Shown here: piece by piece, positions 37,426 through 41,653 of the stretch | How the letters are laid out: the number at the start of each line of letters is the position of its first letter | How positions within the stretch are numbered: position 1 is the stretch's first letter | Assembly: GCA_031255525.1 (NCBI GenBank) | Contig: JAIRSJ010000001.1 | Coordinates: 1-41,653 of the forward strand | Source: Campylobacteraceae bacterium | Lineage (GTDB): Bacteria > Campylobacterota > Campylobacteria > Campylobacterales > Campylobacteraceae | Direction: 5' to 3' | DNA length: 41,653 bases | The notes under the pieces: generated by a model | What the model was told of the DNA's origin: nothing | What the model saw: only the letters and a program-made list of their open reading frames with translations | Databases searched by the model: none | Made by a program: the position numbers and the translations under genes

Positions 37426-38574
37426 TCAGGAAGCTTTAACTTGCTTGTTTTTTAAGATCAGTCTTGTATCAAATGCGCCGCCTGTTACTATGTTGTCTTC
37501 AATGGTAAATGGTTTTTTATCAGGCAATAATGGGAACACAAGCTCTGCAAAACGCACAGCCTCCTCCAGATGCGGATAGCCTGAAAGTACGAATGTATCG
37601 ACTCCAAGATCTATATATTCTTGAAGTCTTTTGACTATCGTTTGCGGATCTCCTACAAGAGCAGTGCCGGCTCCTCCTCTTATCAAACCTATGCCGGCCC
37701 AAAGATTCGGACTTATCTCGAGTTTATTTTTATCGCCTTTGTGCAAAGATGTTATGCGGTGCTGTCCTACGGAATCCGAACTGTTTTGACTGGTTTGTGC
37801 AGCGGCTATCAAATCATCATCCAAATGACTTATAAGTCTGCTTGCCGCATCCCATGCCTCTTCTTCGCTCTCTCGTACAATAATCTGAAGTCTTATGCCA
37901 AACTTCACCGTTCGTCCGAGCGCAGCAGCTCTTTTTTTTACATCGGCTATCTTTTCCGCTACCAAATGAGGTGGTTCTCCCCAACTGAGATATGCGTCTA
38001 TATGCTTTGCCGTCAAATCATGAGCAGCATCAGACGAGCCTCCGAAATACAAGGGTGGATGTGGTCTTTGAACAGACGGAAATAGATTTTGAGCATTTTC
38101 CACATGGTAATATTTGCCTTTAAACGTGACTTTCTCGCCACTCAAAAGTTTTCGCCAAATAGTTAAAAACTCATCCGCTGCTTCGTATCTTTCATCATGG
38201 TTTAAAAATACTCCATCAGCCGCAAGCTCCTCAGGCCAAGCTCCTGGAACCACATTTAGTATAAGCCTGCCGTTTAATGCTTCATCTAAAGTAGAGGCTT
38301 GTCTTGCAAAGACCGTAGGTCCGCCCGTAGCTGAAGTTCTCAAGGCTACCAAAAGTTTAATTTTACTTGTTACGTTTGCTAATGTTGCCGCAGTAATAAA
38401 TGGGTCGAGATTGCCGCTCCCGGTAGGTATCAGAAGCCCATCGTATCCAAGTTGTTCGGCCGTAGTGGCAATTTGTTTCAAATAAGCATTGCTCACAGGT
38501 CTTGCCGAAGATGATCTGCCCAAATATCTGCCGTCTCCGCCGGTAGGTAAAAACCAAAAAATTCCTAAACTCAT
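37426..38574 (-). CDS. ssuD: FMNH2-dependent alkanesulfonate monooxygenase
   Basis: 382 aa; [94 protein letters not shown]. Confidence 0.95.
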
Positions 38575-38861: not shown

Positions 38862-40694
38862 ATGCACAATGGTGGCGAACAAGTAAGCGTATTTACCGAA
38901 GCTTACGTATCGGGTGACATAAACATAGCAAAAGACTACTACAACCAAAAAATAAAAACTGGCGGCATACAGTTTGCGGCAGAGAAATCCGGAGTGAACA
39001 AATGGCTGCAAACACCTCTCGAGCAAAAAGTCATTCAAAAAGAAAAACGTGGCATTTGGAATGTAACATTTAATGGCAAGAACTCATATAAAATAAGAAA
39101 GCTTGATGAAGATGCTGTAGTAAATTACGATCATGGTAACAATAAATACGGAGCTATTCACATACAAAAACATCTTAAAGAGGGTGCATTAGGAGAAATA
39201 ACCAAAATTGATTTGGTGAATATGGGTGAAGTTATAAGAAATGGCGAATTTGATATAAATAATGGGCGAAATGTATACACATTAAATAAAAATGGTGCAG
39301 AATATAAAGTTATTACTTGGAGTGATGAAAGCGGCAATGAAAGATTCTTGACTTTTTATAGTGATAAAGGAGTCGGGGATGAGATTTCCTCAATTATCAA
39401 TAACCCGACTCAGAAAAGCATTATACCACAACCCAAAGGAAAAAACAATGAAAACAGTGCAAGAGATGGAGACATTCTTACAGCAGAACATGACACCGCA
39501 GGAACGCCAAGAGTTGACACAGACGGTATTGGAAGGGGAGAAAGCCCTCAAGTCCTCGATTATGCAAATCTCGGCGGGAGCAAAGCAGATGATGCAGGAG
39601 CCATACCAAGACTTGGATCGGATACTATCCCTGATCGCGAGATTCGGGGAGTACCCAAGATCGATGAAAACTTGGACAGACTCGAACCCTCTAACGGCAA
39701 TGAGCCAAGCATTTCAGGGGATAAGTCAAACGATGTGGTACGCACAGAAAATGCGGACGATATCGCTTCAGCTAAGAACACAAACTCAAACAGAGTAGTC
39801 TTTTACAAAAAAGGTACAGACCGCAATGATAAAACACATCTTCAAGAGACGCTGGGAGAGAGGGTAAAGTCCAACGCGAAAGGGTTTGAAGACGTTCCGT
39901 TTGCTATAGCGAAAGATGGCAAATACTATACGATAACCGATATGCAAACAGGAATGGCAGTTTTACCATACGGCGAACATATTAAAACGAAAAAAGAGGC
40001 TTTAGCGATGCTTGATGACAGACTTGAAAAGTTCGGCAGAGCCAAATTTGACGATGTTGTAAACAAAGATAGAATTGAAAATATAGACGAACTGTTAAAA
40101 ACAGCCAATGAACCAAGAGGGACTATTGAAGCCAAAATAGCAATATTAAAAAGAAAAATAGAAGAAGAAGATAATTTTTTTGTAAAAAGAGACAGAGAGG
40201 AGATGAATTATTTTAATGAAAAGTACAAGGATATAGTAGCGCAAACGGGCGAGCCATATACAAGAGATAGTATTATAGACGCAGATAAAAAGATAGCCGA
40301 ATATACTGCGCAGATCCAAAAGCTTGAAAATGATTTAAAGGTTCTTGACGAAACCAAGCCCATAGAGCAGGAGACAAAAGAGGTATTTACCCAAGTGAAA
40401 GAGACAGTAAAAAAGACACGACAAAGACTCTCGGAGGTAAAAAACACAAAAGCAGAGTCAAGCTGGCACGATGAACTCTACGGCATAGAGAAAAAAGCGG
40501 ACGACATAAATCCCGAAGCTATTGCAGAGCCTGATATAGTAAAGCAAAGAGATATAGAACTTCAAACAAAATATGACGAGCTGAAAAGTAAAGCCAACAA
40601 TCCCGAAACAAAACAGGAGTTAAAGACGTTTGAAGATAAATATGTAAAAGAGGGAAGGGTAGTAAACGAGATAGAACAGGCGAAAGGTTGTTAA
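38862..40694 (+). CDS. Polyvalent-protein-like ORF with BECR-fold (DUF3519/PBECR-like) nuclease domain, low-complexity linker, second small domain and coiled-coil tail; possibly 5'-truncated
   Basis: 610 aa; GAIHIQKHLKEGALGEITKIDLVNMGEVIRNGEF...YKVITWSDESGNERFLTFYSDK resembles phage/ICE barnase-EndoU-colicin E5-RelE-like nuclease domains; no Shine-Dalgarno before ATG 38862. Confidence 0.65.
   Translation: MHNGGEQVSVFTEAYVSGDINIAKDYYNQKIKTGGIQFAAEKSGVNKWLQTPLEQKVIQKEKRGIWNVTFNGKNSYKIRKLDEDAVVNYDHGNNKYGAIHIQKHLKEGALGEITKIDLVNMGEVIRNGEFDINNGRNVYTLNKNGAEYKVITWSDESGNERFLTFYSDKGVGDEISSIINNPTQKSIIPQPKGKNNENSARDGDILTAEHDTAGTPRVDTDGIGRGESPQVLDYANLGGSKADDAGAIPRLGSDTIPDREIRGVPKIDENLDRLEPSNGNEPSISGDKSNDVVRTENADDIASAKNTNSNRVVFYKKGTDRNDKTHLQETLGERVKSNAKGFEDVPFAIAKDGKYYTITDMQTGMAVLPYGEHIKTKKEALAMLDDRLEKFGRAKFDDVVNKDRIENIDELLKTANEPRGTIEAKIAILKRKIEEEDNFFVKRDREEMNYFNEKYKDIVAQTGEPYTRDSIIDADKKIAEYTAQIQKLENDLKVLDETKPIEQETKEVFTQVKETVKKTRQRLSEVKNTKAESSWHDELYGIEKKADDINPEAIAEPDIVKQRDIELQTKYDELKSKANNPETKQELKTFEDKYVKEGRVVNEIEQAKGC
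39448..39798 (+). CDS. Overlapping +1-frame ORF (116 aa) nested inside the BECR-type gene
   Basis: AAAGGA-AAAAACA-ATG; MKTVQEMETFLQQNMTPQERQELTQTVLEGEKALKSSIMQISAGAKQMMQEPYQDLDRILSLIARFGEYPRSMKTWTDSNPLTAMSQAFQGISQTMWYAQKMRTISLQLRTQTQTE*; stop-free frame extends back to 39361. Confidence 0.35.
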   Translation: MKTVQEMETFLQQNMTPQERQELTQTVLEGEKALKSSIMQISAGAKQMMQEPYQDLDRILSLIARFGEYPRSMKTWTDSNPLTAMSQAFQGISQTMWYAQKMRTISLQLRTQTQTE

Positions 40695-40933: not shown

Positions 40934-41653
40934 ATGATAGATTGTTTTTTGAAAAAAGGACTTGAGAAGATAGGCAAGATAATAGGTAAAGCAGGAGATG
41001 TTGAGATCGGAGGTAATATCAAACCAAACGATACGCTTCCTAATAAATCGTATCTTGTGAAAACAAAGAACAGAGAGAAGATAAGAGAGTTTTTCCACAA
41101 TGTAAAAACCAAACCGTTTGATGAAGTAGAGCCTGCAATAGAGTTAGGACGGATCAATGACATTCTTGCAGATAAAATCAAAGAGGCTTTTGGAATTGAC
41201 ATAAAAGGGTTCAAAAGGGTTATTACAAAAGACGGTTTTATACATGTAAAAAATAGACATACCGAGATAAACCCCAAAGATACAAAGCCTATTACCGAAG
41301 ATGATATGTTAAGATACGAGGATATAGTAGATAATCCCGATAAGATAGCTCATACAAAAACACCTCAGGGATTAGATGCTATTGTATATCAAAAACAGTA
41401 TGACGACGCAATCTATATAGTTGAAGAGATAAGAAGCAGCACACGAAGAGGTAAAACTCCATTACTCGCCTTAAAAACAATGTTTAAAAACGATATCAAC
41501 AAATGGAAAAAATATAAAAATGAGAATATAGAATGGATAAATATTGAAAATAAGGGTTATCAGGCGAATAATGCTCAAGCTCTAAAGCCTGAACCTGCAT
41601 CTTACGTCCAAAACGCTCCTGACACTCCCTCTGCTGATATTATACCACAAAAC
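40934..41653 (+). CDS. PBECR3-like phage/ICE nuclease-domain protein, open at window end
   Basis: Translation from ATG 40934: MIDCFLKKGLEKIGKIIGKAGDVEIGGNIKPNDTLPNKSYLVKTKNREKIREFF...FKRVITKDGFIHVKNRHTEINPKDTKPITEDDMLRYEDIVDNPDKI...YIVEEIRSSTRRGKTPLLALKTMFK; no stop before 41653, so absent from the ORF track. Confidence 0.65.
   Translation, partial: MIDCFLKKGLEKIGKIIGKAGDVEIGGNIKPNDTLPNKSYLVKTKNREKIREFFHNVKTKPFDEVEPAIELGRINDILADKIKEAFGIDIKGFKRVITKDGFIHVKNRHTEINPKDTKPITEDDMLRYEDIVDNPDKIAHTKTPQGLDAIVYQKQYDDAIYIVEEIRSSTRRGKTPLLALKTMFKNDINKWKKYKNENIEWINIENKGYQANNAQALKPEPASYVQNAPDTPSADIIPQN

Follow-up and report, generated by a model that had tools for sequence, protein, structure and literature searches.

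Does the 116-codon frame that lies open inside a prophage gene near one end of this contig encode a protein in its own right, and if it does, which of the two overlapping frames is the older? We analysed the whole stretch of 41,653 nucleotides (the window), in which the small ORF runs from an ATG at 39448 to a stop codon at 39796-39798, on the same strand as the ORF of 610 codons that contains it (38862-40694). We refer to them as the nested and the host ORF. From comparative analysis of both frames, we conclude with confidence that 39448-39798 is a real, conserved and selected same-strand embedded gene, a degree of confidence that covers its anatomy and excludes its function.

Table 1. Position of the nested gene and of the surrounding features, in window coordinates
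Feature	Position	Strand	Remarks
Host ORF, 610 aa, 5'-truncated large polyvalent (DarB-like) prophage protein	38862..40694	+	
PBECR2-like domain of the host protein, ending in IIPQ (39420-39431)	39024..39431	+	Homology to relatives
Alternative in-frame ATG, upstream, nested frame	39379..39381	+	SD duplex -8.2 kcal/mol versus -5.6 at 39448
AAAGGA, Shine-Dalgarno-like site	39435..39440	+	7 nt before the nested ATG; putative
Host-frame linker over the nested gene, rich in Gly/Ser/Asp/Asn	39447..39797	+	No predicted structure
Nested gene, 116-aa protein with five predicted helices	39448..39798	+	+1 frame of the host ORF; homology, selection, model
Next prophage gene, PBECR3 domain (E 5e-18)	40934..41653	+	Runs off the contig end

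The coordinates, frame and sequence that an earlier note on this DNA had given for the nested ORF were all correct on recheck, and the ribosome-binding-like AAAGGA was located where it had been described; read in the host frame, these nucleotides fall within Pro-Lys-Gly, directly after the IIPQ motif. The hand count of a raised GC content (62/120 at 39541-39660) was exact, and GC3 over the same interval is indeed higher in the nested than in the host frame (0.675 in 40 codons versus 0.385 in 39). Across the whole overlap the GC content is 48.4%, against 36.7% for the remaining host gene. Since high GC and a host frame rich in Gly, Asp and Asn lower the density of +1 stops, the open and conserved +1 frame might be a by-product of host-frame composition, an artefact that the same note had considered. 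For some hosts, open +1 stretches of the length of the nested ORF did appear in up to 7% of redraws. In the window, however, none of 5000 redraws of the host codons from host usage, with the host protein kept fixed, left the +1 frame open across the 116 codons, and the median longest run was 34 codons.

The nested protein also has homologues. A search of the genomes of the genus found it at 55% identity in G006 and at 28% in G002, in both cases within a long ORF, and profile searches of the order and the family brought the total to 13 nested copies in 13 genomes: that of the window (G000) and 12 further Campylobacterales genomes (G006, G002, G246, G276, G436, G437, G438, G432, G360, G312, G425 and G442), where the protein is encoded each time within a large polyvalent DarB-like ORF of SU10-like prophages. 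All 13 copies are complete ORFs within another ORF, invariably in its +1 frame, and the host ORF exceeds 1000 aa for every copy except the truncated one of the window. No alternative-frame run in the host genes checked is longer than the nested ORF, which spans 92-145 codons; the runner-up has at most 70. As six of the 13 copies are close relatives, they represent about seven independent lineages. Weak matches in G085 (34 aa), G019, G051 and G498 were left out of this count. The one in G085 (L049/L032) covers 34 C-terminal residues of the nested protein, lies next to a shortened polyvalent ORF and is probably a decayed nested copy. Scans of viral sequences found nothing at first, and with other queries two contigs that are probably duplicates of G425 and G312; tblastn against annotated phages and plasmids returned no nested homologue, only weak Bradyrhizobium plasmid noise at E 0.9.

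None of the 12 homologues has a stop or frameshift in the nested frame, the observation that the earlier note had named as speaking against a gene, and substitution patterns point to the nested frame as the better constrained of the two. Between G000 and G006, differences at host codon positions 1, 2 and 3 number 55, 39 and 33 in the overlap, 71, 52 and 95 upstream and 67, 54 and 96 downstream. The host wobble position, the most variable one on either side, is the least variable within the overlap, and this reversal recurs across groups. For the same pair, nested identity is 0.55, compared with a maximum of 0.33 in 400 redraws with the host proteins fixed. When both frames were tested for selection across homologues, as the note had proposed, overlapping-gene omega was 0.19-0.65 for the nested frame and 0.47-1.30 (about 1) for the host frame, figures that, like our other selection estimates, are simple counting estimates uncorrected for multiple hits; the host interval always includes 1, and a single nested interval (G436-G438) just reaches 1.02. 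By-product readings of the nested frame are thus hardly credible: its identity lies above every redraw, the wobble reversal is confined to the overlap, and free-standing homologues exist (see below).

What, then, is the host frame doing in the overlap? In distant pairs its identity is about what the nested frame alone would produce (0.19 versus 0.18 expected for G000-G425, 0.11 versus 0.13 for G000-G442). For closer pairs the linker identity exceeds this by-product level, clearly between G360 and G312 and mildly between G000 and G006 (fraction 0.013), and the host frame is therefore not free of constraint. Moreover, with the nested proteins fixed, no more than 30 of 5000 redraws left the host frame open, which indicates that its openness is itself maintained; this improbability and the conserved host domains on either side argue that the host frame is retained as coding. 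By these estimates, most of the sequence constraint falls on the nested frame, and the host frame is there mainly kept stop-free.

Structure predictions draw the same distinction between the two frames. AlphaFold models of the nested protein from five aligned sequences show five helices (mean pLDDT 89.3, pTM 0.79), in agreement with the helical protein that had been read from the translation. The host protein, modelled from four sequences, reached a mean pLDDT of 44 and was flattest over the linker (26-31), where no secondary structure was predicted, a comparison limited by the shallow alignments. Our analysis as a whole supports a distinct gene placed within a host linker. A fold search of the nested model against PDB and BFVD returned nothing below E 1.8, and neither Pfam, PHROGs nor NCBIfam contained a significant family for the nested protein. 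One PDB sequence match, to the C-type lectin CLEC4M (E 5.5e-4), was marginal, with no stretch that passed alone, and was judged compositional; the other PDB matches were noise.

The same profile that found the nested copies retrieved single-frame genes of 100-125 aa located between ordinary chromosomal genes in two other Campylobacterales families (loci L026-L031, L033, L034, L036 and L073-L082). Nested and free-standing proteins are homologous in profile-profile comparison over 88 columns (E 3e-11; best of 30 column-shuffled controls, 0.04), differ in that the latter are encoded in one frame only, and have in common the motifs W-x4-PL and S/T-x-W-Y. In an unrooted tree, the two groups split at 100/100. 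No Pfam family was found for the free-standing proteins. Several of their genes adjoin what we take, from the neighbours' sequences, to be acnB, mqo-like or rlmH-like genes, and the neighbours inspected form no conserved operon.

These relatives bear directly on which frame is older. The classical view of overprinting holds that the embedded gene is the young one (PMC8227390), and accordingly the embedded protein should lack homologues outside the overlap; here it has them. By the same review of viral overlaps, de novo frames that are +2 to their ancestral frame tend to be disordered, and the host frame is +2 relative to the nested frame. Because the nested gene has free-standing homologues and a product predicted to fold, and because it dominates the constraint over an unstructured host linker, it is probably older than that linker. 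Codon usage leans weakly the other way: both frames are less native in the overlap than the flanks, and the nested frame is slightly worse in 11 of 13 copies, so that by the usual criterion the host frame would be the older. This agrees with the suggestion of the earlier note that the nested frame may be overprinted on an older host frame, to which homology and selection are opposed. In its fuller form, the nested gene would have been born de novo in an existing polyvalent linker and later have escaped as a free-standing gene, an order of events with which an unrooted tree is also compatible. We consider this course unlikely. At the slot, the linkers of relatives that lack the nested gene are unrelated (host residues 217-297 found no match in such members of the genus), the predicted fold and the diverged free-standing relatives in two families are not typical of de novo frames, and an unstructured linker is what would be expected of the younger frame.

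We therefore lean, with somewhat better than even confidence, towards a phage virion gene that swallowed a small gene already in existence: the small gene would be the older message, the polyvalent gene would have been extended or fused across it, and the linker would be the overprinted novelty, in a slot that was kept despite repeated domain shuffling around it. In 9 of the 13 copies, the nested ORF begins about 0-27 residues from the end of a shared N-terminal module. The other four (G000, G006, G438 and G312) have an insert between the two, which carries a PBECR domain where tested. Nested identities correlate with those of the upstream flank (r = 0.84), which is consistent with one capture followed by joint descent with the host flank. 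Between G312 (L062) and G360 (L044/L024), the nested proteins share 85% identity, although one host carries an insertion of about 220 residues, PBECR1 among them, directly upstream; domain shuffling is seen here right at the edge of the nested gene.

The identity of the host gene is clearer in its relatives than in the window. Relatives encode DarB-like polyvalent proteins with SNF2/helicase, LPD23 and PBECR1 or PBECR2 domains in varying sets, and the element of G276 carries an SU10-type capsid and portal, a terminase and an integrase. The features that define DarB-like proteins (a helicase/SNF2 domain, PBECR or LPD domains and a phage virion gene context) are thus present in relatives; of the domains, the truncated window copy has only the PBECR2-like one, by homology. 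The earlier description of the host as a BECR-type nuclease gene stands to this extent: homology to relatives marks its N-terminal domain as PBECR2-like, but the window protein itself has no Pfam PBECR match. Given that the host ORF starts mid-module, with its 5' end missing, and that no other convincing copy of the N-terminal module was found in its own genome, the window copy is most likely a truncated prophage remnant lying close to the contig end. The nested copy of the window may consequently be decaying or be retained for its own sake. A search for an SU10 capsid in the same genome gave no match, but control genomes gave none either. The PBECR3 ORF at 40934-41653 and the truncated host ORF together mark a prophage remnant, which has a monooxygenase-like gene (37426-38574) as its neighbour.

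A separate observation concerns the IIPQ motif. In the form II[PSA]Q it occurs 16 times in 19 large prophage proteins, versus 0.64 expected by shuffling, often directly after PBECR-type modules. The window has two sites (39420-39431 and 41639-41650), and relatives with the motif include G006, G312, G276, G002, G442, L010-L012 and L019. Its end lies a few residues ahead of the nested start in G000, G006 and G312. It is possibly a processing or module-boundary signal.

How the nested protein would be made can be judged from its start region. An SD-like site precedes most of the nested starts in the 13 copies, while G002 and G425 need an upstream ATG for a good one. In the window, a start at 39379 instead of 39448 is possible, as the predicted SD duplex is stronger there (Table 1), although the alignment of nested homologues begins at 39448. 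We propose that the protein would be produced by internal initiation at its own SD and ATG on the prophage late mRNA, alongside the polyvalent protein. Programmed frameshifting from the host frame could reach the same frame and would fit the strand and relative frame being constant throughout the copies; we hold it to be very unlikely, because in G276 a nested-frame stop lies directly before the nested ATG, in G438 and G312 one lies a codon further upstream, and SD-like sites stand ahead of most nested starts.

The function of the product is where our reading becomes least certain. It had been suggested that the nested protein could be an immunity factor, one that would neutralise the BECR-type nuclease domain within its host protein, and the nested gene does adjoin a PBECR2-like domain in G000 and G006 and PBECR1 in G312, and lies upstream of PBECR2 in G276. 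Constant pairing with a nuclease domain was not found, however. In G425, no PBECR1/2/3 was detected in the host or the next gene; the host genes of G002 and G246 lack PBECR; conversely, L010, L011 and L019 carry a PBECR2-like domain without a nested gene; and the free-standing homologues sit by unrelated chromosomal genes, not nucleases. An antitoxin role is thus quite improbable. Less so, but still rather doubtful, is our second-ranked proposal that the nested protein would serve the polyvalent virion protein as a dedicated partner or packaging chaperone and be embedded for joint production. Every phage-borne copy that we found lies in a polyvalent gene, near the end of the N-terminal module and co-inherited with it, as this proposal would have it, but one capture and vertical descent explain the fixed slot equally well, free-standing relatives occur in genomes without an adjacent polyvalent gene, and there are polyvalent genes without a nested gene. 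Our first choice, a tentative one, is that the protein would be a phage version of a bacterial small protein, acting in trans in the cytoplasm, and not a dedicated BECR antitoxin.

Complete small genes within larger ones are familiar from phages. Lambda Rz1 lies inside Rz on the same strand, and genes E and K of phiX174 likewise are contained in larger genes in another frame with a start of their own. Standard annotation leaves embedded genes out, and to our knowledge few long ones with strong comparative proof have been described in tailed phages. In contrast to classical phage overlaps, it is here the nested gene that dominates selection and possesses free-standing homologues, and the linker of the larger gene that looks overprinted. 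The host gene resembles the DarB-like large polyvalent proteins of Iyer et al. 2017 (PMC5512222) in its SNF2/helicase, LPD23 and PBECR1/2 domains and its late virion context; a search of the text of that paper turned up no mention of a gene lying within another in a different frame. We found no prior report of the nested gene in the literature searched, where it appears to be new, and its unusual feature would be the seemingly reversed relation of old and young, with homology, selection and predicted structure as evidence in independent lineages. Disordered linkers of multidomain phage proteins can, on this reading, arise as shadows of other genes, which makes the linkers of polyvalent proteins a place to seek hidden genes, and the nested gene offers a testable small-protein family with phage and bacterial members.

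Two minor observations were made besides. Repetitive translations drew attention to repeated segments in L007 (G006:C22) that resemble a CRISPR array, and the DarB-like gene of Vibrio phage VvAW1 (L068) is open in its +1 frame near offsets 4027 and 4870, over 121 and 193 codons.
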